From assembly GCA_946699065.1 (NCBI GenBank), contig CAMPDV010000307.1, positions 186,001-250,000 on the forward strand: 64,000 nt of DNA, read 5' to 3'. The stretch comes from Loxodes magnus. Lineage: Eukaryota > Ciliophora > Karyorelictea > Loxodida > Loxodidae. This document shows, piece by piece, positions 1,848 through 63,164 of the stretch. Below the pieces are notes generated by a model. The model was not told where the DNA came from. It saw only the letters and a list, made by a program, of their open reading frames with translations, and did not search any database. Position numbers and translations under genes: made by a program. Within the stretch, counting starts at the first letter, position 1, and the number at the start of each line of letters is the position of its first letter.

Positions 1848-2264
1848 TCATTCCTTTTATTTTAGTGTTCTTTTAACATATTGCTTGTATTTTTTCGAAT
1901 AACAACTGCAACACATATTTCTTGCGAACACTTTTCTATCACTATGGCCACACTATGCAATTTTGCCTTTCTTCCTTTCACTATGATAACAAACTGAGCA
2001 CTTATTCTTAGCGTAGTGTTTTCTATCTTTGTGTTCGCATTCCGTTACTTTCATTTATACTCTAGGCTCGAACAGAGTATTTTGGATGTCGTTATTGAAA
2101 ATATTACCCAAGTTAAAAACTTCAACATCCTATGATTTTAAGGTTCCTTTAGGAGAAGGGAGTATTTTGCTTAATGGCCATTTGTTCTAAAAGTAAGGAA
2201 AAGGCGTGGAACCGAGTAACGACGGCATACCTTAAAGAATAGAAGATTCTTGAGTATACTTCAT
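1848..2264 (-). CDS. Small tandem Cys/His motif protein, copy 1
   Basis: This 138-codon frame is open when TAA and TAG are glutamine; it runs from ATG at 2,264 to TGA at 1,848-1,850. About the first 75 residues are proline- and serine-bearing without a known motif. The C-terminal half has two tandem units: CEHKDRKHYAKNKCSVCY, then CGHSDRKVFARNMCCSCY, followed by a basic Lys/Tyr tail. The C-x-H...C-x2-C-Y pattern with DR(K)xxYAK resembles the tandem Cys/His units I know from many ciliate hypothetical proteins and is probably zinc-binding. Length, start and TGA position are identical in the copies at 58,291-58,707 and 62,686-63,102, which supports a real gene. This copy is the most divergent. 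A DNA- or RNA-binding role is conceivable but not shown. Confidence 0.7.
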
Positions 2265-12765: not shown

Positions 12766-12807
12766 GAGGTTTTTCATTTTTTAACAAAAAGTACTATAAA
12801 ATAAAAT

Positions 12808-13768
12808 AGAAGGATTCAAAAGAGGTTTCTACACCACCTCCAAAAAAGTTTGAGAGAAAACCTGAATCCAATCTCGGATATCTTCTTTCCCTCAACCCTA
12901 ACCTTTTTCTTAATCCTAATAACCTAAGAGAAACAAAACAAGTTCAGAAGACTACATATGCAATAACTCCAACCTCATAAGAGATGCTAAGGAAGCAGAT
13001 GAAGTCTGCTCTTCACTAGGAGGTCTCGGAATTCAATTTTTCTAGCCAGATGAATATGGAGCAACTCATCAAAGTGGTACTAAACCTCCACGAAGAGGTC
13101 AGGAAGCTGAAAAAGGACAATGATAAATTAATGGAGAATCTGAGCAAGCAAGAGAAAATCAAATCAAGACTCATGTCTCAGGATAGAGATAAAAGAGCTT
13201 TCTAGAACATATCTCGAAGTCAGAACAGCTAATCCTAGAATCAAAATTAAAAATACAAAGAAATTGATGGTAAATTAGCCCAGCTAGTAGAAAATCAGTA
13301 AACATTATAAAATAAAATTGAATCAAAGGATTAGAAATAAGACAAGTTGGAGATCGAAGAAATTAAAGTTGACAAGTCTGTATACAAGCGAGAAGTGAAA
13401 TTCTTCTACTACTATAACTCAAGAGAACACTTTTGAAGGAAGTATAGGAAATTCCTAAATTTCAAGCAGAGTTACTGGCAAAAGCAAAGCTAGCAGTAGG
13501 AAAAAAGGAATATTTAGCAACAGCTCAAGTTATGAAGAGAGAACAGCTATGGATGAACGATCTTGGGAATATGTACAAGAAAAAAGGCAACTAGTAATGG
13601 AAGAGAAACTAGAGACTTTAAGAACAAGCAAGACAGGACAGTGGATGGAGTACGAAGATTTAATTTTAGCTTTCGGAGCAATCTGGAGGCAGGTTAGAAA
13701 AAGGTTGACGTATCTACAAGAAGACCAAACACTTTTATTTATAATAATAATAACAATAAATACTTAAT
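12808..13768 (+). mobile_element. ORF1/Gag-like zinc-knuckle element E3
   Basis: This copy belongs to the same family as E6 (32,864-33,806). They share the opening GFKRGF(Y)TTSKK, a Ser/Pro/Gln stretch, a helical region, and a knuckle-like site near 13,395-13,445 that is degraded here. The 3' end has a GGAGCAATCTGG...GG hairpin region like E6, and an ATA/ATAA simple tail at about 13,735-13,765. It begins about 45 bp after the end of SINE-like S1. It is broken, with several breaks, and diverged clearly from E6. Most likely non-LTR-like and non-autonomous; no polymerase follows. Confidence 0.5.
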
Positions 13769-14141
13769 CTAAGTTTAAATTTAAGTTAAAAGCAAAATAA
13801 TTAAAAATAAATTATCTTATATGATAAAACTTAGTAAGCAGACTTACATACTAATTTATTAAAAGTAATTAACAATATTTTTATTTATTTAAGTTTTAGA
13901 TAGATTTATATATCAAATATATAAATCATGATAATTTCTTCTAATTTATATTTATTATTAATATTTTGAACTTTAAACTAAAGATATATTATCATTAGTG
14001 AGAAAGGTATTGACAAAAAAATCCAATTTCTTCTAAGAGTTTTGATATTTATTTTAGATACCAATTTAAAAATATACAATTTAAAATATTTTATCATTTA
14101 ACCTGATAAATTTTATTTTTAAATTATTAACCAAAAAATAG

Positions 14142-16387: not shown

Positions 16388-17449
16388 ATGAAAGATTAAC
16401 TATTTAAAGAAGTAAATAACAATCTAGTTGGGAAATCAAGTGATAAGAAAAGAAGCAGAAGAGATTCAAGATTTATTTGAGAAATAATTGAGCTAATGGA
16501 GGATTATGATCTATAGCAAGGTAAAGTCTAAACATAGAAAAATTTACTTAAAGTAAAAAATTATATTTGCAAATAAAAAGGAGAATACCGTTCTACGTTA
16601 TATGGATATGACAGACATTTGAACAAAATGGGAATTGCTTGACTTTTTGATATTGAAAAGCATAAGAAAGAGAAAATAGGAGAATTATATAAATATAACA
16701 CATAAATAAAAAATTCTATAAAAGCAGCAGTTAATCAATTTTAATAGAACAGCAATTTTTATTTATTTGCTTTTCATATCATTAAGCAAGATCTAGCAAA
16801 GATTGGACATTAAGATTGCTGTATAGCTAGGAGACTGTTAACTGAAAGTAACAAGCACACTATTAGCGAAATAATAAAGACATGAGCTCTCAAATCAAGT
16901 TTATAACTTAAAGGAATTCCTACTTTAGACATGATAAATGATGATCTAAATGAACAAATTCAGAACGAAATATCATAGCTTCATTAAGATTACTAGCAAA
17001 TAAGTCCTATTTGTAATCCATAGTAAGACCCTATAGAAATGAATCTATAAAACATGATAAATATAATCATAAAAATATAAAATTTAGCAACAAGTAATAG
17101 TGAGATTATAAAGGCTTTACTTGAATAAGGATACGGGATAGAATAAATAATAGTTACACAGATAAAATACGAAGATAATTTATAAAAAATATTAATTTAG
17201 TTGTAGAAGCAAGGAAAAATACAAACTAGCTTAAATTTAAAAGTGCTATATTTAATGGATTAAAACCTTCCATATGAAGAAAATAATAAATTAGTGAATG
17301 AAATATACGAGGAGTTATTATAAAATTTAAAGAAGTTACAAATCTCTAAAGAATAGAGAAAAAATATTTTTTGAGAAGCGATAAAACTTAAGAATGATTA
17401 ATTTAAACATTAAATTTAAAGATTTTTTTAATTATTAAAATAATTTTGA
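16388..17449 (+). CDS. Unknown protein family U16, 353 aa, with a second copy at 35-37 kb
   Basis: The frame runs from ATG 16,388 to TGA 17,447-17,449 without a frameshift if internal TGA is read through. Composition is convincingly protein-like: a basic N terminus (SSDKKRSRRDSRF), a central part with YRSTLYGYDRHLNKMGIA and KAAVNQFQQNSNFYLFAFH, and a Q/N/E/K-rich helical C terminus. Four in-frame TGA codons occur at places where tryptophan fits (for example GIA-x-LFDIEKHKKEK), and I see no TGG in the frame. An interrupted, diverged copy on the minus strand at about 35,160-36,935 keeps the same reading. I recognise no domain. The existence of two dispersed copies means it is either a gene family or cargo of a mobile element. 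Confidence 0.6.
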
Positions 17450-17689
17450 AATTTGAGTTTTATCATATTTATTTTACATAATTGCTACTACAAAAATTTT
17501 CAAATATTCTAAAATATAAAAACTTTGCAATAAAAATCTATAAGATGAAGTATAAATTAATAAAGTTTAAATTATATTTAATAGTTTTTTTAATTTCTAA
17601 TTATTTTTAATTTAAATACTTACTTTCACCTTTAATTAAGCATGTATATTTATTATTATATTTTTTATATAAATTAATTAATTAATTAA

Positions 17690-18010
17690 ATTATCGTGGC
17701 TTCACCATTATTAGGTGAACCACGATTAAATAGAATAAATCTTAAAAAATTGAGATTAAATCTCTTATAACTACCAAAGCAGTGCTCATAAATCACCTCA
17801 TTTCAGATTCCAGTTTAAATAGCCATCATAATTGCAGGATATTCCGTTCAAGGTTTTGAAAATAAGCCAATACAGTGAAAGACATATTTTATTATGGGTA
17901 TTTAATACCCCAAACTCTGATGAAGCAATCCTTTTTTTTATTCCTCGTTTGATGGTATAAGTTCCTTTGGAGGTTCCACCCCTAAAAGCTAGCATAGCAA
18001 GCTAAAGCTT
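17690..18010 (-). mobile_element. SINE-like element S7, tail type B
   Basis: Read on the minus strand this aligns over about 320 bp with 34,310-34,640 (plus). It carries one core monomer (gcttcatcagag...taccCATAAT...tgtctttc), a variable middle, and a 3' hairpin at 17,695-17,724, CGTGGTTCACC-taata-ATGGTGAAGCCACG, followed by (TTTAA)/(TTAA) simple repeats. The core is shared with S1 but the tail is different, so the elements are modular. Immediately upstream in its orientation lies a coding-like fragment (18,010-18,430). Confidence 0.55.
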
Positions 18011-18430
18011 GGAAACTTCCATCTTAATATTTTTTATTATATATCAATTGAAAAATGGAAGGCTAGAATTTTGGACCTTGAATGTAAAAACTTTCGAGCA
18101 AGTTTAAAGGGACTTTAATGGAATAGCAATCCCCTGTGCTGGATATAATTTCCTAAGGTTCTCTATTAAGGTTTGGCATCTTAGCCGCAATTATTGCGTT
18201 CAGTGACTCTCTAACAGCACAGCTAATTGTTTCTATATTACCTTTCTTTCTGTATTTGCAGAATAAGATGTCATAAAAATTTGGATTCTTATTTAATGCT
18301 CAAAAATCAAGTTAGAACATCTTGATTATCATTATCAAATCGTGGACATCAATCTTATTAGACGGTTTAGATCTATAAGCACGAAAGTGAGTCCACTTTA
18401 GATTAGAAAAGAAATTAAAAAGAAGCAGAA
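18010..18430 (-). pseudogene. Coding-like fragment joined to SINE tail
   Basis: One minus-strand frame gives protein-like sequence such as LKWTHFRAYRSKPSNK, NPNFYDILFCKYRKKGN and AVRESLNAIIAAKMPNLN, with one in-frame TGA at a site that suits tryptophan. It leads directly into the tail-B SINE-like unit at 17,690-18,010. It may be the remnant of the autonomous partner that shares this 3' end, but I see no reverse transcriptase or endonuclease motif, so that is only a suggestion. Start and end are undefined. Confidence 0.35.
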
Positions 18431-18840
18431 TCAAAAAATAAGCGAATTAAAGGATTATTTTAAGCTGAAAATTGAACTATATATAATTTGATTTAACATT
18501 TTTATATAATAAATAATTTGATTTATGATTTATATTGTATTTATATTTATTTAATTAATTATATGCAAATATAGAAGGAAAATAAATACATTAAAATAAT
18601 TTAATATATTTTTAATTTAGCAATTTTACCTATTTTTAAGTTATTTTTAATTTAGAATCTTAATTTATTTTTTAGTATTTTAATTTTAAATTATAGCTTA
18701 TATAAAATTAAAATATTGCATTTTTAGCATTTGCTAAAATAAAAAATAAATATAAATAAAATTATTTAATTTTTTAATTTAAAATAATTATATAATAGAA
18801 AAATAAAGAATTACTTAATAAATCTAAATCTATATCTTAT

Positions 18841-19640
18841 TAAATTAAATTAAATTAAATTAAATTAAAAATTTGTAAGGCTAATGGAATGTTCCCTTAA
18901 AAGATCCATAACCCTCTGTATTACCTTTTACAGGGTCTCGGACTCCCCGGTGTCTCCACCCAAGTTCACTTCCGAGCTTTCCGAATGGTCTTTGAGTTAT
19001 CTTTTTCCGTTATAGCTAACCGTCCGAGGATGGGTAAAACGTAGTCAATTCGTTTAAAATCTTTTATCTAATTTGCATATTCTCCTTGCATCATCTTCAA
19101 AGGTGATATTAGCTGCCGCATATGTGGCACTTCTTTTTGAAGAACTTTTATTTAGTCATGGGCTGTTCTTCTATTATCATTTGATCTTGATTTTTTTAGG
19201 ATTGTTAATTCTCTAATTTTGCTAATCTTTATTTAATTTTTATAACTTGCTAGAAGGCATTTTCATATTTTTGAAAATCTATTCCCATTTGCTCATCTAG
19301 TCTTACAATATCGCATTCTATTTCGTAATACCTATTATTAATGTCCTATTTTGTTATAAATTCAGAGTGCGGTTACTCATCTTCGACATGATCTTGTAAA
19401 TCTTGTTATATGTTTATGACGTAGTGTTCGAGATTCTCTACTTTATCGGTGTAGTCGATAATGATCTCTACAAGTTATTCCTTATCTAACTACATTAGTT
19501 ATTCGAATGTATGCCTCTTTTTTGGAATTTTGGAAGGTAGTTATTTTTCTTCTGAGATTTGGCAATATTGTCTTTTTAGATCTTGATTGGTGTTTTTTAG
19601 TTCTAGAAAGAATGATCAGAAGTGCTATGGATCATCTTTT
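18841..19640 (-). mobile_element. ORF1/Gag-like zinc-knuckle element E5, best preserved
   Basis: A minus-strand frame from about 19,480 runs through an acidic, helical coiled-coil-like region (DKEQLVEIIIDYTDKVENL), a basic linker (QKFFKKK), a CCHC-type knuckle CHICGSQYHL...C at about 19,085-19,125, and a Gly/Arg-rich end (LGSELGWRHRG). An N-terminal Ser/Lys-rich part begins near 19,635 (MIHSTSDHSFQNQK). The unit ends at 18,841-18,870 in a perfect AAATT array on the plus strand, that is a (TTTAA)n 3' tail. A single knuckle ORF plus pentanucleotide tail fits a LINE-like, non-autonomous retroposon. It looks nearly whole in its main ORF. Confidence 0.55.
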
Positions 19641-19945
19641 TTATCTATATTTTATTATATATTTATAAAAGATAGTATGAGAAGAATAGTTTTTTATTCT
19701 TTTATTTATTTTAAAATATTTTCAACTTTTAATTTATTTATTTTTATGTGTAAAATAAAAGGTATTAATTCTTTAAAAATCAGCAAAATAATAAAAGCAA
19801 TATAATTTAAAAATGAACAGATAAATTTAATGATTTCTAAATTAGATTTAATATAAAAATTAAAAAGAAATAGTTTAAAATATAATTTTGATTATATAAA
19901 CTTTTTATTTTTAGTATTTATATGCTATTCAATTTTTAAACTTAG

Positions 19946-20779
19946 TCACTAAGACACAATAGAAATCTAAGTAAAGTTTTTAAATTCTTTATTTTTAGTT
20001 TGAAGAGCTTATGTGATATTTAAATGTTACTTTAATATTAATGAGCAAATATTAAAGGAATAATAAAAATGTATCTTATCTTAATTAATGTTTTCGAGAA
20101 TCAGTAATTATTGGCGCTAAAGAATAAGCAATTAAAGCATTCTAAAAATTTCACTGTCATAAATTAAAATTTACTGTCTCATGTTTTTGGTCTAATCATT
20201 ATCTTGACAATTTTAGGATAAAATGCTAAATAAATTTCTATCTTAAGGCATTTACCAATTCTTAAGTATAAAGGAATAATAGCTTTTTCTTTGAAGTTAC
20301 TTATTTAAAATTTGATTTTGTCTTTGTTATTCTAAAAGTTAGCTTTTAAAATAACTTAAGTTTAAGAGATAATTAGATAATGCGTTGAGAAGGGCGAGAT
20401 CCAAAAATATGCTTAAAAATGTATAAAAATGGATTTTTTTCTACAAAATGATTTATTAGTATTTAAAAGAAATATTTAAAATAATAACTTTTATCAATAG
20501 CTTTAATAGATTACCATTTTTACAAATCATATTCTTCGCTAATAAGCCAAAACTCCCACTTATCTCGCACAAAATTGATTTATCAATTTAGTTTAAGAAG
20601 ATCTTAAATTTCATTGGATGCATTTGAAATATCATTTATTGTGCAAGGTTGAAAAAATGTACCATTTCTAAGAAATAAAAATCCTAATATGCTATTTTGA
20701 GTTAATTGAAAAAGTAACCAGCATTATCCCTAAATTTTAGGGTGAATCTTAATTTATTAATTTTATAACAAGTAAGCAT
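19946..20779 (-). CDS. Hypothetical protein, 277 aa
   Basis: This frame runs from ATG 20,779 to TGA 19,946-19,948 with no internal TGA; the competing frames contain several. The N terminus is MLTCYKINKLRFTLKFRDN. The middle contains KSILCEISGSFGLLAKNMIC, hydrophobic helical stretches (FYTFLSIFLDLALLNALSNY), then a polar Gln/Asn/Arg-rich helical part (KSQLLEQQRQNQILNKQLQR). The distribution of residues is that of a real protein, possibly with one or two membrane-associated helices. I recognise no family. It lies between element E5 and SINE fragment S3, which borders its 5' side, so a promoter would have to fit in about 80 bp or lie inside the repeat. Confidence 0.5.
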
Positions 20780-20859
20780 AGAAGCAAAAGAAAATATCAT
20801 AATAAATAAAAAGCGCGTAAAATAGTAAGAATAAATTAATAGAGATAGGTAACTTAAGA

Positions 20860-21030
20860 TTCATATACTTTAAAAATACTCGTAATCTTATCTACTTGTT
20901 GGAGGTCCAATGACATGGCAGGATTGTGTCTCATTGCATCACCAAAGCAGAGGAGACATGTGTCAATTATGAGTACTTAAATTCCCCACCTCTGATGAAG
21001 ATGACCTTGTTGTTCACCTTCAAACACTTA
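20860..21030 (-). mobile_element. SINE-like fragment S3
   Basis: On the minus strand this is one core monomer plus the following unit: TTCATCAGAGGTGGGGAATT, ACACATGTCTCCTCTGCTTTGG, the GATGCAATGAGACACAATCC block and AAGATTACGAGTATTC. It matches S1 and S2 closely (over 90 percent by eye) but lacks the minisatellite and tail A. It is truncated at the 3' side. It sits just upstream of both the 19.9-kb minus-strand frame and the plus-strand F-box-like gene. Confidence 0.6.
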
Positions 21031-21321
21031 TAATAAAAATAAGTTAAAAGTACTAAGAGTCTTATAATATAAAAATGAATTAAACCAAATAAAATTATCC
21101 TTATAAAATTTAAGTATCTTATAATTAATTTTTAAACTTTAATTTATATAGGAATACTAAAGAAAATCGTTGGTTTCTTTTATGTTTTTAAAAGATTCTT
21201 AAATAGATATAAAATAATAGCATAAATGGTTTATACTGTTAAAAAATATTGATATAAAAGAATTAGTTTTTAGATAATAATAAAGATGTAAGAAAGTCTA
21301 AGCTTATAAAAGAAGTTTTTG

Positions 21322-23700
21322 ATGAAAAATACACTGACCAAGATAGCAGCGTTTTTAGATATAAATGATCTTTTGAAAGTAATGTTGCTGTGCAAAAGAA
21401 CTAATAATATAATAAATGATAGCAATTAAATATGATTCATGCTATGCAAGAAGAAATGGATGAGTGAAAACGATTGGTTTAATTTGGAAACCTTAATTAA
21501 TCAAGTAGAGTAATTAAAGGAAAGAGACTTATAAGTGATTAAAGAAATTGTCAAAGTTAATTGGAAACTATTATATAAGAGAGGGTCTTAAATTTATTTA
21601 AAACAACTTGAAGGAAATATTTGTACGGAAAATGAAGCTAAAATAATGCAAGATTATTTACTAAATACTTTAAAAACGCCAGCAATTCCTTTTCCAAAGC
21701 TTAGAAGAGAATATACTTTTCCAACAATTTACTAGGATTGTCTTGCTAATTATTATATGCCTGATTCCTATAAACATTGTAGCAGTGCAAATCAATTACA
21801 AAATATCTTCAGAAAGCTAGAAAAAAATGGGTAAAATATGTTTTAGGAATTAAAAGAAAATGAAGTATTTAAAGCATAATTTTATTATATGAGATGACTT
21901 GCATTATAGGATTGTAAATAAAACGAATACTTGAATATTAAAAGTTAATTCTAGAAAAATAGCAACTCTGTTTTATCTTGTAATTAAGATTTCCAGCTAT
22001 CATAGTAAAGATAATTTGAAAACAGTAAATAGAATCCTTTTATAATAGAAATGTTTAATTTCTTTGATTCCTAGATATAATTTTACTGCTAGCTTTAAAA
22101 AGCTAGCATATCTATAAATATACAAAATGACGAAAGTTTGATCCAAGAATATACCAAATAATGGAGTGCTTATACCTGTTCAATTTAAGATATATAGGAA
22201 AATTTTGATATTTATTAATAATTGATAAATGACTTTTACGATAGCTTATTGAATGAGACAGTTGAAGTTCCTTAATATACAATATGAAGACATATGTCCA
22301 CTATTTGGATTAAAGAAGTATATATTTAATTATAAAGCCAACTAAGAACAGCTGCTATTAATTTAATTACACAATGAAGAGCTAAAAAATTGGATTTATT
22401 TAGATGGCAACATATACAAAGAATCTAAGAATATATCAACAAGCATAAGCTAAGTAAGCATCAAATTGAATAAGATTAAATTTCTAAGATTAAATAATAT
22501 GAATTTCACTTAGTCAAAAAATTAATGTAATCTATCTTTGATATTACTTTAAACGAGTAGACTGTTTAATATACCAACTCCCAATAATTGATTCCAGAAG
22601 AAATGTACCAGAGTATAATAGAAGAAATAGAAGAAGAAACAATAAGATTTTATGAGTTACTATTGACTAACACTTAAATAGATTTAGAATCAGTTATATA
22701 ATTCTTTTAAAAAGACTTAAGATATCTAAGAAACATTTTTATTGCGGATAGTGCTACTAAAACAGTTTCATAGATTTAATAAAAAGTAATAGAGATAATT
22801 AAAAATAAAATTATAAATCACTTCTTATAAGAAGCAGAAGATTAAAGATACAAACCTAACTAAAACGTAGAAATTATTATAAAGAGTACACATCTAAAGT
22901 TTTAAGCATTACTAAATTAATTTAGCTTAAGTTAGAATTAATAAAGATAGCTATTAGAACAATTATTCTTTAAAAATAAGTTAGAAATTCTAAATAAATT
23001 TCAAGTACTTCTTGATTTATAGATTGGAGCAAAATACAATAATGAAATAGAAATAAAACTAAAGAGACTAAAAATTAATTAAAACTTAAATGAAAATCAA
23101 AAATAATTACTTTCAGTCATCTTTTTTAAAACTCGATAGTTCGTGAATAAACTCGTTAACTAGGAAAAATAAGATATAAAGACAAATGATAAATAATAAG
23201 AATTAAATTTTAATAATTAGAAGGAATATTATAGCAACATAATGGAAGAAAAATTAATAATCACAAAAATATAAAAAGTGAGTAATTGGGAGATGTAAAA
23301 GTCTTAGTTTTAATAAAAGAAATTAAATTTGCTCTCTTTATTATGAATATAGAATTCTAGAAAAAAGAATAGTTAGATTATAAGGAATATAGAGATAAGA
23401 TGCTGAGATAATTTCAACTTAAATACTTCAATAAATTCAAATAGTTTTGTAGAAAATTACTTAAATAATTACTAAGCAGTAACTAATTATTCAAATACAA
23501 TTATTATCTTTGTCCAAGAATTATTTTTCTGACTTAAAGATAATCAAGATAAAGATCAGAAACGGAAAGTATTTAGAATAATCAATATCTAATAATCTGG
23601 AATATTTTCAATCATACAAATTAAGATATTCAGAATGAGACCATCAAATCCCATTGTTTAGAAGAGTTTGCTTGATTAAAAATATGTATAAAACTTTTGA
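21322..23700 (+). CDS. F-box-like protein, 793-codon frame
   Basis: From ATG 21,322 to TGA 23,698-23,700 one frame stays in register for 793 codons when TAA/TAG are glutamine and seven internal TGA are read through. Residues 1-50 match an F-box pattern: LTKIAAFLDINDLLKVMLL, then CKRTNNIINDSNQI-x-F and CKKKW, where x is TGA at the position F-boxes usually carry tryptophan. The rest is a long helical, Gln/Asn/Glu-rich protein with no repeat I can name. The other internal TGAs also sit where an aromatic residue would be acceptable, and about six TGG codons are present. F-box proteins act as substrate adaptors of SCF ubiquitin ligases; here that is inferred from the N terminus only. If TGA is always stop in this organism this is a pseudogene, yet it has no frameshift. 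Confidence 0.6.
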
Positions 23701-25925
23701 TTTAGTGATTTTTCCATTAAAATCTCTTTATATATATCTTTTATCTTTTAAAATTATGGATTTATTTATATTTTTTAGATTAACTTCAAAAATTAAAAAA
23801 ATATATTTGGAAGATATTTATCTAATTCTTAAAATTAAATTAAAAATTATAATAATTTCTATATTTTATAATTATAATGAGATTTCAAGATTTATATTTT
23901 TTAATTACTCGAAAACAAAAATTAAATTTTACTCAAAGTAAAAGTTTATAAGATATATTTAAAATTAAAATGCAAAATGAACCTTCTTATTTCAGTTCCA
24001 ATGTAAAAATACTTAAAATAAAGATTTTATTATTAAGCATTATATTTTAAAGTTAAAACTAGTATATCTTAGAAGTTTATTTGTAAACATAATTATTTTA
24101 ATTAAAATTTAAACTTTTATCTAAATTTTTACTTAAACCATATCTTTAACTTAAAAATATATAATACCTAAAAATAATAAGGAATGCTAATAAGAATATA
24201 TTAAAATTTAAACGAGAAAATGAATTTCTTTATTATTATATTTTAACATTCTACGAAAAAGTAAATATTAATAAAAAATAATATTTTAATTTATGGAAAT
24301 GAATGATTAGATCTAATAATTTAAATTTAAATATTTTACTAAATCTATATATAATCTAAATAATTATCTTGAAAACTTTTAATTTATAATTCTTAAAAAA
24401 AGTCTAATGAAAGTAATATCAAATTACTTCATATAAAAAAATAAAAAAATAATTTAGTAATAACGCTAAAAAGGATAATTATGATATAAATGCAAAATAT
24501 TTAAAAATTTAACTTTTATAGATAAATAAAAATTTTCTAAGATGTTAGCTATTAATAAATATGCAATTAAATTCTTAAGAGATTATGGAAGAAATATTTA
24601 ATTAATAATATGAAATATTATTTTAATAATTATAAAATCTAAAAATATATTTAAATTTAAATCTTTTTAAATAATTTTAATCCAAATTGAATTAATCCTT
24701 CATATGAAATTCAAAGATATTAAAAATCTTAAACATGCTTTTCACAATGTAATATTAATTATTATATATTTGTTTAAAATAAATAAATATATTTATTTTA
24801 ACTTAAAATCTTTTAGGATTTTTAATAAATTGAAAAAGGAAATAAATATAAATTAAAAAATTAGAATAGAAATGTTATTAGATTTAAATTAATAGAACAT
24901 AATTATTAAATATCTTTTATAATAATTTCATATATTATCCTTATTTTTATGTTACTTTAATAGTTTTTAATTTAAGAATAACTTATTAAGTAATTTTTAA
25001 ATATATTAATGTATAAATCAAAGCAAGAAAAAAGGGTAAGTCATTTTAGACTAGAAATTGAAGCATAATAATTTAAACTGTTATTCATATAATGATTTAT
25101 TATAATAATAACGATAAGTTGGTATCATTCTCTTTCTTACAATTATCTTTATAAGATTTAATGAATGGTGGTCAGATTTTATAATGTTAGAAGTTGATTT
25201 CATTCATAGCTAATTATAAAAACACGCGAAAATGATTATATTTTGTATTTTTATGTAAATTAATTAATTTACATAAATTATTACATAAATGCATTAAATA
25301 ATATTTTCTATTTATTTTAAAGTAAAAATATAAGGTATATTCTTTTACTTTTAATCTAATTAAATATTTTATTTTATAATATTAATTTCATAATATCTAG
25401 TATAATAAATATAAAATTATAATTAACTAAATTAATTCAAAATTCTTTTCATTTTTATATTTTAATCTTTAAAATGAAGTTATGTGATTGATAAGTTAAA
25501 AATAATTTTATATAAGCCAAAAAACTAAGAATTTGTAGATCATTTGCAGCAAAATTAAATTTATAATGTTCTCTCTTTTTTTATAAGATTATACTTTATT
25601 TAATATAATAACTTAATTTTTATTTTAAAATACAATTAAAGTAATTTTCATCTATTTTTTGAGTATTTAATATATTTTATTGGTACTTGAATAAGTAATA
25701 GTTATAATTGTCTCAAACTAAAAATAATTTAGCATTATAATTAATTTTATTTAGCATAATTAAAAATATTAAGCATATATATGTTATAACATTTTTTGCA
25801 TAATAAATAATAGATGCTATTAAATATTTAATCTAAATAATATAAAAAGATTAATTTAAAATTAAAAATATATTAAAAAATAATTATTTTATTAACTAAT
25901 TAGATAAAATTAAATTAAGGGTTAT
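23700..25925. other. AT-rich spacer without supported genes
   Basis: Extremely AT-rich sequence. The only patch with some protein-like character is on the minus strand near 25,207-25,030, starting MNEINFQHYKI, too short and uncertain to call. No repeats shared with the rest of the window were noticed. Confidence 0.4.
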
Positions 25926-25928
25926 TAT

Positions 25929-26330
25929 AAAAATGGACGTCGACTGTGGTCAGGAGAACTATAGGTAATCTGGTGCAGTGAATGCTGCATTGCGAGTAAT
26001 CTCGCACTAGATGCCACTACGGGAAAGGATGGATAAGCTCGGAAAAAAACCTAAATTGCACTAGGGTTCTCATTAGCAGTATGAACATTTGAATGATGCG
26101 TTGCTAATGACTTAATTACTAATTCTTATTTGGATCTTATTAGAAGACTAGAACATTTTATTTAAGATTTAAGAATAATTTTTAATAAGCAGATTCTCCA
26201 TTTGGAGAAGTGGGTGTTATTCATATGACAACAAGAAGTATCAGAACACTTTTTTAATATTAAATAATAATATTGAAAAGCTGCTCGCCAATGTGGTGCT
26301 ACTTGCTCTATAATTATATTTATTATATAT
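25929..26330 (+). ncRNA. Folded RNA-like element R1 with tail type A
   Basis: A GC-richer island in AT-rich DNA. It contains GGTAATCTGGTGCAGTG, then a perfect hairpin TGCGAG-taat-CTCGCA at 25,991-26,006, a GATAAGC block, AGGGTTCTC, and a second stem CATTAGCA...TTGCTAATG near 26,069-26,107. A third hairpin, TTCTCC-att-tGGAGAA, is near 26,190-26,206. It ends in tail A (aaagctgctcgccaatg...gtgctac...ctctataat) near 26,276-26,312, the same tail as SINE-like S1. R2 at 26,339-26,890 repeats the same order with compensatory base changes in the first hairpin. No tRNA cloverleaf or known RNA was recognised. A SINE whose head is a structured RNA is the best guess. Confidence 0.5.
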
Positions 26331-26338
26331 TCCATTTT

Positions 26339-26890
26339 TTTAATGGATGTCGGGCTCTAGTCTGCCGAGTAGGTAATCTGGTGCACTGTAGACTTCATTA
26401 CAAGTACTCTTGTAATAGATTTCACCACAAATAAGTAAGACTACGCTCTTGTGTGATAAGCCTTATTTATTTGAGGGTTCTCTCTATCAGTAGAAAAATC
26501 TGATTAGTGTGCTGAAGTCCAGGCCTCAGAGTTATCCAGCCTCTACATGTCGTTAATCTGGTAGGAAGATGGAAAAACCTAAAAACATGACTGAAATGAA
26601 TTATTTTTTTAAGTAGAAAAATTTAATTCGGTTATGACATTTTACACAAGAATCAGAATTTATTCTAATCAATTCTAACTCTGGTTTTCAGAAAGAAACA
26701 TAAGAATTTTGAGAGTGAATATAGTAAATTTTTATTTCAAAAATGGAGAAAGAAGTGACCAAAGAGACGAGAGGAACTAGAAATATTTCTAGACTATTTT
26801 AACAACAAAATTTTGTTTCTTTTATTAATTATGGTGAATCTAATAAAGATGGAGCCACATCAATTAATTTATTATGAAATTTTAAATAAA
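26339..26890 (+). ncRNA. Folded RNA-like element R2 with tail type B
   Basis: Shares with R1 the opening ATGGA(C/T)GTCG, the block GGTAATCTGGTGCA.TG, a hairpin TTACAAG-tact-CTTGTAA at 26,398-26,415, GATAAGC, and GAGGGTTCTC followed by a short ATCAG...CTGAT stem. Relative to R1 two G-C pairs of the first stem have become A-T pairs, on both sides, which keeps the fold. The element continues through a unique region and ends at about 26,830-26,880 with tail B (ATGGTGAATCTAATAA.GATGGAGCCAC then TTAATTTATT), as in S6 and S7. The 3' end therefore differs from R1 while the head is the same. Confidence 0.5.
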
Positions 26891-27574
26891 AATAAACTAT
26901 AATAATCAAATAATATGGCTTAAAATTGGTGGAAAATTTGAAATTTTAAAATTAAGTTTTTGACATAAATAAGACTCAAATAAATCTAAATTTTCCAAAA
27001 AAAATTTCATCAATTTTTTCAATTAAAAATAAATAATTTATTTATGATTTAATACATTTTTTAACTTAATTATAAGTAAAACAGATATATCTATATTAAG
27101 AGATATTAGTTTAAAAATCAAAGTTTCAATTTTTATTTAATATTTATAGAATTAAAAAATGCTATTTTTATAGAATAATAAACAATAAATCTCAGAAAAA
27201 TTTGAGATATTTTAATTTGCAATTAAAATAAATATTTACTATATTTTTTAATTATTTTACTTTAATTTATTTTAAATAAATAAAAATAGAAATTTAATTA
27301 TCCGATTTTTTCTTAACTAGAATATATTTCTTAAATCATTAATAGAAATAAAGTTATTTATATAGAAAGACTTTTAATATTATAAATTTTTAGTTTTAAC
27401 TTGAATTAGTAAATTAATTTTTAATACTAAATTCGAAATTACATAAATAATCTTAATTTTTAATAATAATAAACTATAAGAGTTTCAATATTTTAAATAT
27501 TGAGATATAAATGCATAATTATTGGTAAATAATCATGTAAATTATGTTAAATTTACAAGTTTCTGCATTTTCAA

Positions 27575-28700
27575 TCACGGCTCTCTTTCACTCTCATCTT
27601 GATAAGCATTCGATTAGTTAACTAAATCTATTTATTATTTTCTTTTTTTAATAAGATCAGCTTCTTCACTCTATTCTTTAAAAATCTTTAATCTTCTTCT
27701 AAATAATTATTGATGTAATATTGCTATATACTTGTCTACTTTAATCATCTAACTTTTTGTAAATTATTGATTAAAATAGTTTTAATCGTATAAAATTAGT
27801 CTTCTTTAATATTTACGGTAATTATTTTGTGTTTTATTAAAATTCTTCTAAATGTCTGAATAAAGATTACATTGAAAAATGGGCTCAAATGTATCAAATT
27901 CATATCTGCATAAACAAAGTTAGTTGAATTATGTTTCGATATGTCGTTGATTCAGTTTATATTAATAATTATAAATGTAAGTCCTTAGTTTATAGATTGA
28001 AATAGTTTCTTGGATTAGATGTTATTGTATTTAGTGTATGCTATTAAAGAGAAACATTTTAATTACTTTCTATTTAATCAATAAATCTTTTTGCTGTTCA
28101 CATTCCTGTATTCCTTTAAAGTTATTCTTAGAAGAATTTATTTAGATTTAAATATTAAGATACTTATTGAACTCTTTGAAATCATAAGTTCTTTAAATAT
28201 CTAAATCATTTTTTTTCAATGCTTTTATCTATATATTTCTTGTAGGGAAGGTTAAATTTATTACACTTTTGAAGTAAAAAGGCTATATCTGAATTAGGAT
28301 TTTCCTAGCTGAATCAAGTTATTTTCAGCAAAATGCATAAATTTTTATGTTAAAGAGTGGATAAATGGAAGTAAATTTAGATAAATAAATAAAGATTAAT
28401 TAAAAGAAGATTATGAAGATTTGAAGGCTAATTTTGATACAAGTCTTTGTAATCTAGTAATTTTTTTAATCATTCATTTAATTTCTGACTTTACTGCTCA
28501 AGGAGTTATATTGCTTCTATATTCAACTTTGGGTAAAATGAAAGTTCTACAAAAGTTCTTATAATTAATTGGAGATACAATGTCATATTTGGAAAGTGTA
28601 ACAGTCGTTTTCAAAGATGCTCTCCTATGTACAGAAACCTTTTCTTCACATCGCTATAATCTAAATTTTTTTAATTCAAAAATTAAGCATCAACATCATT
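27575..28700 (-). CDS. Unknown protein, probably with one frameshift or small intron
   Basis: Two minus-strand frames join to make one protein-like product. The upstream one (from about 28,700 or further) includes FYPKLNIEAIQLLEQQSQKL and NPNSDIAFLLQKCNKFNLPY; the downstream one, from a run of eight A near 28,210, includes NDLDIQRTYDFKEFNKYLN, RYEFDTFEPIFQCNLYSDIQ and ends SNAYQDESEREP at TGA 27,575-27,577. The downstream frame is free of TGA for roughly 190 codons. The switch at the A run suggests a slippage frameshift, so this may be a pseudogene, though an unrecognised tiny intron is possible. In-frame TGA codons in the upstream part fit tryptophan. The start was not found; coding-like sequence may extend to about 28,850. 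No domain recognised. Confidence 0.5.
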
Positions 28701-29112
28701 TTTTATAGTTTAAAGTACTCTTTTAAATTAGTTTAAAATTTAACTTTATTTTTATTCAAGTTATCTATAAAAATAATACTAAAGCTAAAAATTTTTATTT
28801 AAAAAATTTATTTGTTTACATCAATTTTAAAACCTGCATCTTTAAGTTATATTATAATCAAGCATAGAAAGTAATAGCTTTTATCTTTATTTTTCTAAAA
28901 GAAATTAAATAAAAATTGTCAAATTTTTCAAATAAAAAAGCATTAAAAATATTTGATATAATATAAAATGAAATTTATTAAATATAAATGTTTATTTGAT
29001 TTAAATTAATGTAAAATAAATAATTCCAATGAAATAAATAATAAATTTAAATATTTTAATTAATAAATTTTATTTTCATATTTAGCTTTTTATTTAATAA
29101 TCAATATATCCT

Positions 29113-31033
29113 ATGTATTAGTTACCTTCTTATTGCAATAATTGTAAGAAAGAACCAAAATACCCTGAATTTACTCTAACTTGCAAGCATTAATTGTGTT
29201 AGAAATGCATATCCAATTCTTTACTTTCTTAGCAGTATTAGCCTTTATTTGATAAATATCCTAGGAATTATTTTTTCAAATGTCCTGTTAATTCTTGCAT
29301 TTATATAAATTCACTAACTGATGAAAATTTAGAATATGCTTTGAAAGTATGAAATGAAAAGGGTAAAATTGAATAGTTATAAACAGTAATTTTTAATTTT
29401 AGATAGATAAAAACAATATTTCCTAAGAATAAAGCTATATTAAAACTACAGATTAAAATACTTTTACTCTAAATTTAATAGAAGGACAACAGTAAATGAA
29501 AAGTTAAAGTTTTGAGATTCAGTGAAGCTCATAAATTTAGCAGCAAATACCTATTAACTATAAATAAAGTTAAAACTTAAATTGGGATTTTCCAACTATT
29601 TAATAAAGAGTAAGTTCTATAAAATTTAGTATTAAGTACTTAGTGACTTAAAATAAGTTCAAGAAGAATGGATAAAAGAAAATAAATTAGAGTAAATTCA
29701 AATAAACTAACTATAGGGATAAAACTAGCAGTTAAATGAATAAAATTATCACTAAAAAATTGAAATTAACTAGTTGATTTGCAAGATACAATCTCTTGAA
29801 TAATCATAACAGAACTATGATAAATTAATAATAGAAAAATAAGAGATAATAAATTAATTACAAAAGCAGAATTAACAGTTTTAGAGAGAAATAAGTGATA
29901 AAAATAATGAATTTTATGTATAAAAATTAAAATGTGACTTCAATCAGGATAACTAGCTAAAAGAAGTTTCAGAAATTTAAAGATACCAGTCCGAATCTGA
30001 AAATAAAATATCTAAAACTTACATTAAACAACTTGAGAATGAAATTTAAAATTAAAAGATAAAATATTAGTTAATTCATCAGCAACTAGAAAAAAGCAAA
30101 GATTTAGTTTTACTATTGCACAATCAAACGGTAAAACTTGAATATTCATAACAATAGGAAAAGTTGAAATATGAAAATATTCTTAAAGGATTAGAAGAAA
30201 AAAATACTGATGTTAAGTTAAAAGATAATTATATTCGCAAGCTTATTTTGGAAAATGAAACGTTAAAATAAAGCATTAATATATTCAAGCAGTAATAAAC
30301 ATCAGAATATTACTAAAAGGGACAAAACGAAAATCAAGGTAGTTTTATAATACAACAGAATTCAAACTATGAATAAAAAATTAACATTACTCCAACAAAA
30401 AGTTCTATTTCCGATATTTAAGATTAAAAATTAATAAAAGTAGAAAATTAATAAAATTTATATTTTAATAAATAACTAAATTAGTTTTAAAAATTTCCTT
30501 AATAATTTTAAAGTAATATTTCTTATAAATAAATTCTCATCAAAGGTATTTCATCATAAAATCCCTAAATTTCATAGTAATCTAATTTCTAATAATTAAA
30601 TTATCAAGTTTAGTAAGTTGATACTAATAAAGTAAGCAAAACTAATTCTAAGAATAGTAAAATAAAGTAAAAATATAAAACTTAAAAATAGTAAATGACT
30701 AAGAAATTAATTAAAGAATCAATTTAGAAGAATAAATCACTTTAATATAAATGTTAATTAAATTAAGTTATTGATATGAATCACTTACTTCATTTTAATT
30801 ATATTCCTAAGTCCAAACATCGTTCTTTTCATCTTTCAACTATTGCCTGTTGTTTCTTGTACTTTCTTGTTGTTCTTCTTTAGACTGCAATTATTTATTT
30901 TTATTTTGTAATACAATTTAAATTCTTTTTTAGTAGATTCCTATTAAAAGAATCAATTATAAAAAGTTAATATAGTAGAATTAATAATTTTTATCTTCAG
31001 AATTAAAAAAGCATACTTTAAAAAAGATTATGA
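29113..31033 (+). CDS. RING-finger coiled-coil protein, 627 aa, two tiny introns
   Basis: ATG 29,113 opens a three-exon frame (29,113-29,385; 29,403-29,609; 29,630-31,033) that sums to exactly 628 codons ending at TGA. Residues 8-65 form a RING-HC-like domain: CNNC, then CKHQLCQKC, then CPVNSC, with the spacing expected for two zinc sites, implying E3 ubiquitin-ligase activity. From about residue 160 to 450 it is a long Gln/Glu/Lys-rich coiled coil (for example EEWIKENKLEQIQINQLQGQ), then a Ser/Asn/Gln-rich part. A hydrophobic segment near the end (STIACCFLYFLVVLLQTA) could be a membrane anchor. Two in-frame TGA codons (29,350 and 29,523) sit where tryptophan fits; TGG is also used. The architecture is TRIM-like without a visible B-box. 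Coding-like sequence at 31,140-31,300 may be a further exon, so the 3' end is uncertain. Confidence 0.75.
29386..29402 (+). other. Predicted 17-nt intron
   Basis: GTAATTTTTAATTTTAG lies in phase 0 between the RING domain exon and exon 2. Removing it moves the reading frame into the polar, Gln/Asn/Ser-rich frame. It has GTA..TAG ends like other ciliate micro-introns. Confidence 0.6.
29610..29629 (+). other. Predicted 20-nt intron
   Basis: GTAAGTTCTATAAAATTTAG, again in phase 0. Removing it joins exon 2 to the 468-codon coiled-coil exon. Both introns are needed for the three segments to share one frame, and neither length is a multiple of three. Confidence 0.6.
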
Positions 31034-31956: not shown

Positions 31957-32863
31957 AAAGTTTTTAAATACCGAAACAATAGAGGAAAGAAAAAATAATG
32001 TGAAAAATTAAAATTAAATTTAGCTTTCATAAATATTTAATTATCTTAGAATAATTTATATTTATTAAAATTATTTTTTTTAAAAACTTAAATAAGCAAA
32101 ATTAAAATATAAATTTAGCCTATTATATTTTACTTCGCTTCTCTTTTTAAAATTTATTTTGTTTTTTTTAATTTTAAGCCTTAATAATAATCAAAAATGT
32201 TTTTCTTTCGTTTAAGAAATATATAATTTATATGTATATAATTTTAATTATTTCAATTATTTATTTTATTTATATTCTTATTTTTATTTAATACTATTTA
32301 TTTTTAAATATTTTAAATTGTAATTTGATACTATTTTCTAAAAATAAAGACATTAATTATTTTTAATATACAATTTTTTTAATTAAAATATAAATAAAAT
32401 GACACCTAAGAAAAAAAATGATATCTTTCTATGAATAATTAAAAATAAAAATGATTTTATAGCTTAATTGAATAAAACCTTAATAATATAAAAGGTAATA
32501 GCTTCAGAAATCATTTCCATAATCAGTGCATTAAAAAGAAATAAAAAAATAAAGATTAAAGATTGAAAATTAGAATAAATAAAGAAAAATAGAAAAATAG
32601 CAATATCTTAAATTTTCATCTATAGAGGATATAATTAATTACGTGTAATCATAAATGGATGAAATTGGAAAATATCATAATTATATTCATTAAATATTTT
32701 AATTTTAGTTTTCTTATTTCATTTATCAAAAAAAAGTTGTAAGAAAAATAAGCAATATAATAAGAAATTACTTAAAAAATCAATGGATAACAGGGAATTA
32801 TACCTAAAATTTTTAAATTAAATTATTATTAATAAAATATAAGAAAAACATTTAAATTAAAAA

Positions 32864-33806
32864 ATGGAAGGATTCAAAAGAGGTTTCTACACCACCTCCA
32901 AAAAATTGGAGAGGAAACCTGAATCCAAACTTGGTCAGTCGTCTTTTTCTTAACCTTAACCTTCTTCTTAATCTTAACAACCTGGAATTCAAACAGGATA
33001 TGACGAGCAGAAGAAATTCTAGAAAGCGACTCACTTAATAATTCCTACATCGGAGGAAAAGCCAAGAAAACAGATGAAGTCTGCTCTTCACCAGAAGATG
33101 TCAGAATTTAATCCTTCTGGCCAGATGAGCATGAGTAGCTCATCAAAGTGGTACTGAACCTCCAGGAAGAGGTTAGGAAACTGATGAAGGATAATGAGAA
33201 GCTTATGGAACAACTAAACTAGCGGAAGGAATAGAATCCAGATTTATGTCCTAAGAAAGAGAACTAAACACTTTCTGAAACATATCCTTAGATTAGATAA
33301 AATAATTCTAAAATTAGTTTCAGAAACAATATGATCTGAGTTATAGACTGGAAAAATTAGAAAAGAAGCTAGACAAACAAAGGGGAGACCAACGATGATT
33401 GAAGAGACCAACATGAAGTATAGGGTTAAACCACAAAAAGTAGTGAAGAATTGTTACTAATGCAATTCGATAAAACATTTGTGAAGACGCTGCATGAAAT
33501 TCCAAAATTTCAAGATGTAATATTGGAATAAATAAAGAAGAATACAAGCACAGCAGAGGAAAAAAACAAATGAAATAGAGACAAATCAGAGAGAGATTAT
33601 ATCTAAATGAATTAGGTTTCATCTACAAGAGAAAATCTGATTAGAAATGAAGATAGAATTGGAAATGACATGAGCAATGGAAGGAGAAATAGAGACCTTT
33701 AAAACTTTGTTTTTAACACCGGAACAATCTGGTGTCCAGCATGAAGAGGTGAAAATCCTCATTAATTGCTAAACTTAATTTATCCTATTATTATAAAATA
33801 AAAGAA
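32864..33806 (+). mobile_element. ORF1/Gag-like zinc-knuckle element E6
   Basis: ATG 32,864 opens MEGFKRGFYTTSKKLERKPE, a Ser/Pro/Gln-rich linker, a helical region (VVLNLQEEVRKLMKDNEKL) and a good CCHC knuckle, CYQCNSIKH...C, at about 33,450-33,495, followed by basic sequence. The 3' end has two stem-loop segments, CACCGGAACAATCTGGTGTC and GAGG-tgaaaat-CCTC, then TGCTAAACTTAATTT and a short A/T-rich tail. GAAAATC in a hairpin loop followed by TGCTAAAC is shared with the 3' end of E1. Same family as E3. Broken, with a few breaks. The layout fits a non-autonomous LINE-like unit. Confidence 0.55.
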
Positions 33807-34309
33807 AAAATGCTGCTATATATGTTAAAAGCAGTATCATTTTAAGATGTTGGTAAAGAAACAAAAATTATAAAAAAATATAATAAAAATCTATTTTAAA
33901 TATGACCAACTTAATCAGGCTTAATATATAGAATTTTTTTTTATATTAGTAAATTAAACAATTTTAAAAATAACTATTAGATAAGATAGGATTTCTTATA
34001 TCTTAAAATTTAATTTAATATCACTAAATCTGGCTATTCAATTTTAAATATGATACTACTTTGATTTTTTGTTAATTCTTCTTTAAAGAATTATATTTTT
34101 ATTTTTACTCTCAATAAAAAAAAACTATCTAAAAAATATACATATTTTAAAATAAAAAATAAAAATAAAAAAATTTATTCTTGCTAAACTATCTTTTAAG
34201 TATATATAACTAATTAAAGATTTCAATACTCATGAATTAATTCATTTTATTTTCATTTATACAATTATTTATAAGATTTATAAATCAAAAATTAATCAAT
34301 TATTGTAAA

Positions 34310-47560: not shown

Positions 47561-48374
47561 ATTTCTTTTTATTTCTTTTTATTTCTTTTTATTTCTTTTT
47601 ATTTCTTTTTATTTCTTTTTATTTCTTTTTATTTCTTTTTATTTCTTTTTATTTCTTTTTATTTCTTTTTATTTCTTTTTATTTCTTTTTATTTCTTTTT
47701 ATTTCTTTTTATTTCTTTTTATTTCTTTTTATTTCTTTTTATTTCTTTTTATTTCTTTTTATTTCTTTTTATTTCTTTTTATTTCTTTTATTTCTTTTTA
47801 TTTCTTTTTATTTCTTTTTATTTCTTTTTATTTCTTTTTATTTCTTTTTATTTCTTTTTATTTCTTTTATTTCTTTTTATTTCTTTTATTTCTTTTTATT
47901 TCTTTTTATTTCTTTTTATTTCTTTTTATTTCTTTTTATTTCTTTTTATTTCTTTTTATTTCTTTTATTTCTTTTTATTTCTTTTATTTCTTTTTATTTC
48001 TTTTTATTTCTTTTTATTTCTTTTTATTTCTTTTTATTTCTTTTTATTTCTTTTTATTTCTTTTTATTTCTTTTTATTTCTTTTTATTTCTTTTTATTTC
48101 TTTTTATTTCTTTTTATTTCTTTTTATTTCTTTTTATTTCTTTTATTTCTTTTTATTTCTTTTTATTTCTTTTTATTTCTTTTTATTTCTTTTTATTTCT
48201 TTTTATTTCTTTTTATTTCTTTTATTTCTTTTTATTTCTTTTATTTCTTTTTATTTCTTTTTATTTCTTTTTATTTCTTTTTATTTCTTTTTATTTCTTT
48301 TTATTTCTTTTTATTTCTTTTATTTCTTTTTATTTCTTTTATTTCTTTTTAAAAATTTATTTTTATTTCTTTTT
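47561..48374. repeat. Satellite of 10-bp unit ATTTCTTTTT
   Basis: About 80 tandem copies of ATTTCTTTTT, nearly perfect, with occasional 9-bp variants (ATTTCTTTT) more frequent after 47,785. One strand is pure pyrimidine apart from the single A per unit. The low divergence implies recent expansion or continuing homogenisation. It ends in a broken unit near 48,374. Replication slippage is the likely source; a nucleosome-excluding or triplex-prone structure is possible. Confidence 0.95.
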
Positions 48375-48460
48375 AATTAATAATTCAAAAAGTATTTTAA
48401 TAATCTTAATAAATAAATTATTTCTATTCTTTAGACTATTATTTTTAATTATTTGATTAT

Positions 48461-53430: not shown

Positions 53431-53943
53431 GCGGTTTTAAAGAATATATAATATAATAAAATAATATTTAGTTACTTGCACAGAGAATCTTTTGCTTTCA
53501 CAAACTCTTTAGAAAAATTATATCAATGGATTTAATAAAAATAAATATTAGAGCATCATTTATTTAAATTAGAATAGTAAGAATAAATTATAAAAAAATT
53601 AAAAAGCTAAGATGTAAAGTGTAAACTTAAATCTTTCAATGAATTACTTAGCTTTAAACCTTTATGATTTTTATTTTTTATTTTAATTAAATGTTTAATT
53701 CCTATTTCAATAGATTAAATTATCGTAAGTTTATAATTAGTTATGTGTAAGGCTAAATAGATCTAACTCATTTGTGAGTAGTGCCAGAACCTATTAATCT
53801 CTTAGTAGCATGTTGTAGAAAAATAGAACTAAGCAGAAAGTTTAAGTTATAAGTGGTGGATTATCTAATCAATAGCAAAGTTAGCTAAGAAACTAATTTG
53901 AAACTAAAGTAAGAAATAATCAGATACTTGCTGTTGTTCTAAT

Positions 53944-54802
53944 ATGCAAAATCTAGAAATGGAATCATAGGGATGGATGATTCCTGATCCTAAAATCAAT
54001 TCTCTCAATCCTTCTCTCAGCTCAGATTTCATGATTACAGATAAAGAAATTAGCGGTGTAGCAGATGGAATTTCATAATGGAAGAAATATTATATAAACC
54101 CAAGAGTATTTGGATAAAAACTACTAACAAATGTTAGAGATATTAAAAAGAGTAGAAAATAAGAACTTAATTCTAACTTATAAGAAGAAAGTATTTAAAT
54201 ACTTCAATAAGCTTTTGAAGGAGTCTAAGATGCTGGAAGTAGTACTATCATCTTCTATTTCATAGAAAAGTAAACTTTACACTTTACTTGAATTGGAGAT
54301 TCATAAGCTCTTGTTTTACGAAGGAATAAGTGCAATTATGAAGTTTTATACTAAACTCAAGTTGATTAGTATGCATTTAATGCTACTCGATAGTTAATAA
54401 GATACCTAACTCTGATTTTGCTTAGATACTAATGAAGAAGAATGAAGAATTAGGATTGGAATTAAATAAACTGATAGAAAAATGTAAGAGAGGCAAACTA
54501 TTAAAAGCTAAGGATGCAAAGCATTATGAGATATAGATATAAAATGAGGACATAATAATATGTGGCTCAGATGGATTCTTTGATAACATGTGGATTGAGA
54601 ATATAGTGGAGATAGTGAACAAGTAGATGAAATAGATTTGTAAAAATTGTCTAAAAAGTTATGTAAGAAAGCATGAGAGTAAAGTTAGAAATAAGATTTT
54701 GAAAGCCCATTTGCGAAAGAAGCATGCAAATAAGGAAGGAGAACAATTGGAGGAAAGAAAGACGATTGTACAGTGGTAGTGACTAGAATTAGAAGCTATT
54801 GA
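53944..54802 (+). pseudogene. PP2C-type protein phosphatase relic, PTC7-like
   Basis: The order and spacing of PP2C motifs are clear: GVADGI (54,055-54,072), a PTC7-like GSSTIIFYFIEKQTLHF, IGDS (54,292-54,303), SDFAQILM, SDGFFDN near 54,567 and the terminal GGKKDDCTVVVT at 54,749-54,784, ending at TGA 54,800. Total length (about 286 codons) is normal for the PTC7 branch, whose members are metal-dependent Ser/Thr phosphatases, often mitochondrial. The metal-binding aspartates of VADG, DGFFDN and GGKKDD are present. However, these motifs lie in three different frames, so there are two frameshifts (one between about 54,395 and 54,410, one between about 54,690 and 54,749). One TGA also stands before IGDS at 54,289, a spot where some PP2Cs have tryptophan. 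As read, it cannot make a full enzyme. No GT-AG micro-intron cleanly repairs either shift by eye. Confidence 0.75.
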
Positions 54803-57715: not shown

Positions 57716-58290
57716 TGCTTAGATAAAATAAAGAATAAAATCTCTTTAAGTACTTTATAGTTAATAAAAATCATTCTCTTTTACATTTATTTACTTCTAA
57801 TTTATCAATTCTAAGATATAGCATCATTCAAATTTATTACTTAATTCACTGCCTAAGATAAGACGTTAACTAGTATTAAATTTATAGAAACTCTGCTTCG
57901 ACAAGTTTCGAAAAATATTATTTATAAAAAATGCAGGTATATGAAAATTTTCATCACCTCATTAAAAAGATATACTTTAATGCCATTTAAGTTTAATAAA
58001 TGAAAGATAGATAAAATAATTTAAGTATTAAGTTAAGCAAATTTTCTAATTTAATGTAAATATTTCATTGGAATTATGCAGATAGGGCAAATAAACATGA
58101 TAGATTATATTTTTTTATTTCAATTAAAATTTATATATAAGTTAACACTTCCTCATTATCTATAACAGATATAGAATCTTTATTTTATTTATTAATTATT
58201 CTTTAATGTATAAAAAGTAGATTGAATAAGCATAAACACTTTAAAATTACTATTAACATCAATTAAATTTAATTTCATGCAGTCTATTAC

Positions 58291-63160: not shown

Positions 63161-63164
63161 TTGA

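Follow-up and report, generated by a model that had tools for sequence, protein, structure and literature searches.

We found that the stretch of the Loxodes magnus genome analysed here (hereafter the window; 64,000 nucleotides, contig C307:186001-250000) is, with a probability that we put at about 0.96 from its sequence, karyorelict nuclear DNA read with NCBI code 27. In this code, UAA and UAG (together UAR) encode Gln, and UGA stands for Trp inside a gene and terminates translation at its end. The internal TGA codons of an F-box protein gene, a RING gene, an uncharacterised gene starting at 16.4 kb and the ORF1-like retroelements would then be sense codons. The initial annotation of this DNA had observed in-frame TGA at Trp-like positions, which was partly confirmed, and had proposed that UAR means Gln and that UGA means Trp or stop depending on context. 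The latter interpretation is supported by the exchange of TGA and TGG at shared alignment columns, by TGA at gene ends and by a Loxodes-type eRF1. A single window suffices to recognise the dual-meaning UGA code. All searches for relatives within the genome were run on the assembly to which the window belongs (705,730,643 bases, 7,843 contigs).

The alignment of homologues at the TGA columns, for which the initial annotation had called, covered ten TGA codons of the window: four in the F-box gene, one in the RING gene, three in the 16.4-kb gene and two in an ORF1-like protein. At seven of the ten, the majority of relatives had TGA or TGG (F-box 4/4, RING 1/1, 16.4-kb gene 1/3, ORF1 1/2). TGG was present in at least one relative at five of these seven positions; at F-box codon 334 and ORF1 codon 183, TGA was the only one of the two codons found.

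The F-box gene is located on the plus strand at 21,286-23,346, with TGA read as Trp at 21,433, 21,895, 22,285 and 22,375. The earlier suggestion that Trp fits its internal TGAs held for all four codons, in a frame that starts at 21,286. The first 665 codons contain 4 TGA, 6 TGG and 64 UAR; over all triplets of the window, TGA outnumbers TGG 3.1-fold (1,771 versus 574). Pfam matched F-box-like (1.2e-4) and F-box (7.7e-4), both slightly below the curated cut-offs. The protein had 15 matches in its own genome, itself included, several of which are fragments of one gene. In the codon alignment, codons 50, 204 and 364 were Trp in all relatives, written as TGA or TGG; the only exception was Phe at codon 50 in one near-copy fragment, at the point where the alignment reaches the edge of that fragment. 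The diverged relatives comprised six stretches at four genomic places, with 57% and 25-42% identity. At the four TGA codons, 13 of their 15 residues were Trp (7 TGG, 6 TGA), and at the six TGG codons of the window the figure was 18 of 23 (8 TGA, 10 TGG). At the remaining codons, Trp was found in 14 of 1,686 cases.

The ratio of nonsynonymous to synonymous substitution rates (dN/dS) against the 57% paralogue (L037) was 0.21 for codons 1-676 and 0.51 for codons 687-789. Against the near copies, it was 0.37-0.57 and 0.35-0.47 for the same two ranges, based on few differences. Judged by the value of 0.21, the four internal TGAs are predicted to be under purifying selection, and the gene looks functional as far as can be read from its sequence. 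Regarding its end, the window has TAA at codon 677, a position occupied by TGA in the four full-length relatives, and has its own TGA at codon 687. The gene possibly ends at this candidate stop (TGA 23,344); similarity to the diverged paralogue extends to ~ 23,650. In a distant relative (L044, 1501-2655), a weak match to Cullin (2.5e-4, under the curated cut-off) lies next to the F-box.

The 16.4-kb gene (16,388-17,449, plus strand, candidate stop TGA 17,447) belongs to a large uncharacterised family with the motif GESRSTxYGYERHLxKMGxxWLFD. As had been noted earlier, it contains four internal TGAs (16,478; 16,640; 16,883; 17,372) and no TGG. The genome gave 106 matches to its protein, the window copy counted, and the columns were tallied over the window copy and 20 relatives. 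Codon 85 (TGA 16,640), which lies in the KMGxxWLFD part of the motif, was TGA in 11 of the 21 rows, TGG in 8, Leu in 1 and TAA in 1. Trp thus occupied this position in 18 of the 20 relatives, as 10 TGA and 8 TGG. The alignment indicates that codon 85 is a clearly conserved Trp, and that codons 31 and 166 are recent or variable.

The RING exon (29,113-29,430, plus strand) matched Pfam zf-C3HC4 at 6.3e-6, above the cut-off, and its TGA at 29,350-29,352, read as Trp, is situated within a 106-codon frame. The exon had 32 matches in the genome, counting itself. The 16 rows of the alignment were made up of the window and 15 relatives, five of them near copies; two of the remaining ten are near-duplicates of each other. 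Among the 14 relatives with a residue at this column, ten had TGA, two TGG, one His and one Leu, giving Trp in 12 of 14; the fifteenth was gapped. Of the two Trp-like TGAs previously assigned to the RING gene, the one at 29,350 thus belongs to the RING frame and the one at 29,523 to a different frame. Three-frame translation placed the TGA at 29,523-29,525, the RING exon and a coiled-coil-like open frame of 505 codons (29,516-31,033, plus strand) in three different frames. We infer from the sequence that tiny introns would join the RING exon to the coiled-coil-like frame. The mode of L. magnus intron length is given as 17 bp in a passage of PMC11441545.

The first of the ORF1-like proteins (18,872-19,645, minus strand) has the CCHC knuckle CHICGSQYHLWRWC, with TGA at 19,097-19,099. 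Its search gave 4747 first-look candidates, 147 of them scored as matches. A second ORF1-like family is represented by two copies on the plus strand. The element at 12,780-13,800 has the knuckle-like segment YYYNSREHFWRKY with TGA at 13,434-13,436, and Tyr where its relative has Cys; that relative, at 32,838-33,840, has the knuckle CYQCNSIKHLWRRC with TGA at 33,482-33,484. In line with the earlier statement about the knuckles, TGA was found in all three (19,097, minus; 33,482, plus; 13,434, plus). The ratio of nonsynonymous to synonymous differences per site (pN/pS) between the two copies of the second family was 0.41 in one sense frame and 0.47 in one antisense frame. For the first protein, columns were counted over 21 rows, the window and 20 genome stretches. 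The knuckle column (codon 183) was TGA in 20 of the 21 rows and TAA in one, and at codon 197 there were 14 TGA, 4 TGG and 3 Leu, one of these Leu belonging to the window. TGG is used at other positions of the ORF1-like proteins whose knuckle has TGA. It seems improbable that the ORF1-like element limits its own protein dose through a slow, contested UGA, or that it is tied to hosts with this code. LINE-type (long interspersed nuclear element) retroelements are described as plentiful in a section of the published L. magnus genome paper (PMC11441545).

As a yardstick, we used tubulins of the same genome. Twenty loci were selected because each carried a TGA. Four columns, each occupied by Trp in a TGG-only alpha or beta tubulin from this genome, accounted for 46 of their 63 internal TGAs; with two frame-changing loci left out, the count was 41 of 54. 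In-frame TAA and TAG fell within 28 Gln columns, out of 466, in 177 of 388 cases across the 20 loci. Both the F-box and the tubulin frames require UAA and UAG to be Gln. No TGA was present in the domain of the 30 best-scoring tubulin matches of the 150 listed, which suggests that the most conserved tubulin copies avoid TGA. In Blastocrithidia, highly expressed genes were reported to avoid reassigned codons. Of the 150 tubulin matches in that list, 21 lie on contig C64, in both orientations, representing either real arrays or an assembly expansion.

The tubulins also showed TGA as a stop. In the four TGG-only tubulins read, TGA stands past the acidic tail, at residue 446 or 453. After exclusion of one fragment and the two frame-changing loci, 17 of the 20 TGA-bearing loci were usable, and 12 of these have TGA at residues 427-453. 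The tubulin genes that were read carry their last Trp-column TGA around residue 395-402, followed by the end TGA at 427-453. Depletion of sense UGA just upstream of the stop, with poly(A) proximity as the deciding factor, has been published for L. magnus (in a passage of PMC11441545).

Within the window, TGA closes three Cys/His genes at the same codon, as the initial annotation had stated. Copy 1 (1,848-2,264, minus strand), for which a start codon is presumed, ends with TGA at 1,848-1,850; copy 2 (58,291-58,707, minus strand) with TGA at 58,291-58,293; and copy 3 (62,686-63,102, plus strand) with TGA at 63,100-63,102. Comparison of copies 1 and 2 gave a pN/pS of 0.32 in the chosen frame and 0.34 in one antisense frame. 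Because these values are almost equal, the choice of frame leans also on the Cys/His pattern. The gene regions span 1,798-2,280, 58,232-58,750 and 62,643-63,161, and two of them, separated by 3.9 kb, make up an inverted repeat of 98% identity. At the gene ends examined, UGA alone was seen.

The decoding machinery was sought in the assembly. A degenerate tRNA pattern admitting any NCA anticodon matched 123 places in the genome, of which 100 were listed. All of the listed matches have the anticodon CCA, and 99 have a 4-bp anticodon stem with a 7-nt loop, as expected of tRNA-Trp(CCA) with a shortened stem; the lone listed copy with a 5-bp stem is on contig C110. Positions 27/43 are unpaired in 47 of the 100 as A-C (contig C67) and in 52 as T-C (contig C148), and they are paired as T-A in the C110 copy. 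ARAGORN likewise draws a 4-bp anticodon stem for one locus, L083. The genes are arranged in arrays, with at least 47 in C67:482300-491201 (mostly ~ 187 bases apart) and at least 52 in C148:155441-169444 (mostly ~ 241 bases apart). The UGA-decoding tRNA-Trp(UCA) that the initial annotation had suggested looking for did not appear among the 100 listed of the 123 matches, and ARAGORN reported no tRNA at the 12 loci scanned that carry a UCA-like arm. The 17-base UCA-arm pattern gave 457 matches versus 175 for the reversed control; given these counts and the lack of any ARAGORN tRNA in the 12 loci scanned, it is uninformative. A 4-bp-stem tRNA-Trp(CCA) is the reader of UGA in Blastocrithidia and in Condylostoma; passages of PMC13092985 and PMC12005148 state that Loxodes is known to have it too.

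The second component, eRF1, which had also been proposed for inspection, was found in two copies (L049 and L050). Both contain GRAQNIKS, FFLCENTF and Ala70, the latter position in human numbering, and Pfam identified the eRF1 domains of L049. On sequence comparison, these motifs match those of Loxodes striatus. The L. striatus eRF1 has RAQNIKS, FLCENTF and Ala70, a combination present in no other row of the portion of Table 2 shown from PMC4695839. In Blastocrithidia, the eRF1 substitution Ser70Gly was tied to UGA readthrough (passage on Kachale 2023).

This genome uses UGA both as a sense codon and as a stop, carries the short-stem tRNA and encodes a changed eRF1. From the literature, a mechanism can be proposed in which the short-stem tRNA-Trp(CCA) would read UGA through a C:A wobble and the altered eRF1 would be a weak competitor at UGA codons within genes. 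Proximity of the poly(A) tail may then favour termination at the final UGA.

We must also note several results that weigh against the dual-meaning reading. Three of the ten window TGAs do not fit a conserved Trp, i.e. codons 31 and 166 of the 16.4-kb gene and codon 185 of ORF1. Codon 31 (TGA 16,478) is Trp in only 6 of 20 relatives (5 TGA, 1 TGG), the others being scattered, and codon 166 (TGA 16,883) is TGA in the window copy alone. Taken together, the three 16.4-kb columns (codons 31, 85 and 166) are Trp in 24 of 59 cells, compared with 6 of 3,209 at other codons, and the three TGA columns that could be aligned with a local inverted copy (34.3-36.9 kb) read Tyr, Leu and Lys there. At ORF1 codon 185, 18 of the 21 rows have Arg or Lys and three have TGA. 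The knuckle column is never TGG, so that Trp is not proven by this column alone. F-box codon 334 is TGA in seven of nine relatives, Phe in two distant ones and TGG in none. Since the tubulin loci were selected for TGA, their number is uninformative on how frequent such loci are, and 5 of the 17 usable loci (L054, L065, L066, L068 and L069) have no TGA at residues 425-455 in the frame read. Finally, the two stretches at 5.9-6.5 and 50.4-51.0 kb, to which the same in-frame TGA had been attributed, are 62% identical in DNA with pN/pS from 0.66 to 0.93 over the six frames, and show no clear coding frame. Without composition correction, all six frames of the first stretch matched similarly, with best E-values from 4e-18 to 3e-17; with the correction, a single frame remained under 1e-6 (37% over 173 residues, 7.6e-8). 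In one frame pair of the uncorrected comparison, TGG faces TGA twice and TGA faces TGA once. With coding undecided, the pair was not counted as confirmed.

Some of these observations would be expected if TGG codons had decayed to TGA, i.e. if the genes were dying copies and their TGAs nonsense mutations. Private or rare TGAs, such as 16.4-kb codon 166 and ORF1 codon 185 (3 of 21 rows), are compatible with decay, as are the degenerate-looking copies in the window at 34.3-36.9 kb. Intact paralogues with TGG, which the initial annotation had regarded as evidence against a dual-meaning UGA, do exist, yet the exchange of TGA and TGG runs in both directions at the same columns and the F-box gene is constrained, a combination that decay does not explain. 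The dN/dS of 0.21 was obtained across the very codons bearing TGA. At the same columns, relatives with 25-57% identity also have TGA, others have TGG, and TGG codons of the window face TGA in relatives. In the tubulins, TGAs are located on Trp columns while the remaining protein is well conserved. We therefore consider decay very unlikely. Its variant in germline-limited DNA was rejected on the same F-box dN/dS and because, as stated in a passage of PMC11441545, no canonical germline-limited sequence was found in Loxodes.

An even less credible alternative is NCBI table 6, in which UAR is Gln and UGA is purely a stop, so that the internal TGAs would lie in unrecognised tiny introns or mark short proteins. 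The clear assignment of UAR to Gln, the tiny Loxodes introns and the TGAs at gene ends would all suit this code. Nevertheless, frame and homology continue across the TGAs, and we rejected it since these codons align with TGG in relatives. Code 27 fixes how the genes are read; a standard or table 6 translation would truncate the F-box, RING and 16.4-kb proteins. Scores of coding potential based on codon usage followed base composition and were dropped.

The code itself gains nothing beyond the published work on Loxodes, and the new part is the reading of particular genes. Other authors reportedly cite Seah et al. 2022 for this code. The code, the tRNA and the eRF1 motifs are already published for Loxodes (PMC11441545, PMC13092985, PMC12005148, PMC12153298 and PMC4695839). 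Karyorelicts including Loxodes were assigned to NCBI table 27, with UGA as the sole stop that also encodes Trp when sufficiently upstream of the poly(A) tail (passage of PMC11441545). We found no difference from table 27 as described in that part of the L. magnus paper (PNAS 2024, PMC11441545), with which the window shares UAR as Gln, UGA as Trp or stop, UGA gene ends and a retroelement-rich genome; the window genes are further examples. The code of Condylostoma magnum (Swart 2016, PMC4967479) likewise combines sense stop codons, context-dependent termination and a 4-bp-stem tRNA-Trp(CCA), but there all three stops are reassigned and also used as stops, in contrast to UGA alone at the ends examined here. 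In Blastocrithidia nonstop (Kachale 2023, as excerpted), a 4-bp-stem tRNA-Trp(CCA) also reads UGA and eRF1 is changed at position 70. It differs in Ser70Gly, UAR as Glu and UAA as stop, whereas the present genome has Ala70, UAR as Gln and UGA as stop.

Contigs C307, C584, C657, C2410 and C3484 bring together members of three families (F-box, RING and 16.4-kb), pointing to a block segmental duplication or uncollapsed haplotypes. Neither the 16.4-kb family nor the ORF1-like proteins nor the Cys/His trio matched any Pfam entry at the curated cut-offs; weaker hits included HTH_3 (0.02) and CBM9_2 (0.0043). One plus-strand frame at 53,923-54,783 gave a weak PP2C phosphatase match (0.0011), slightly under the cut-off. 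The window also contains a tandem array at 47,561-48,375 with 82 copies of the 10-base unit ATTTCTTTTT, which underlies all three of its open frames that reach 150 codons under the standard code.

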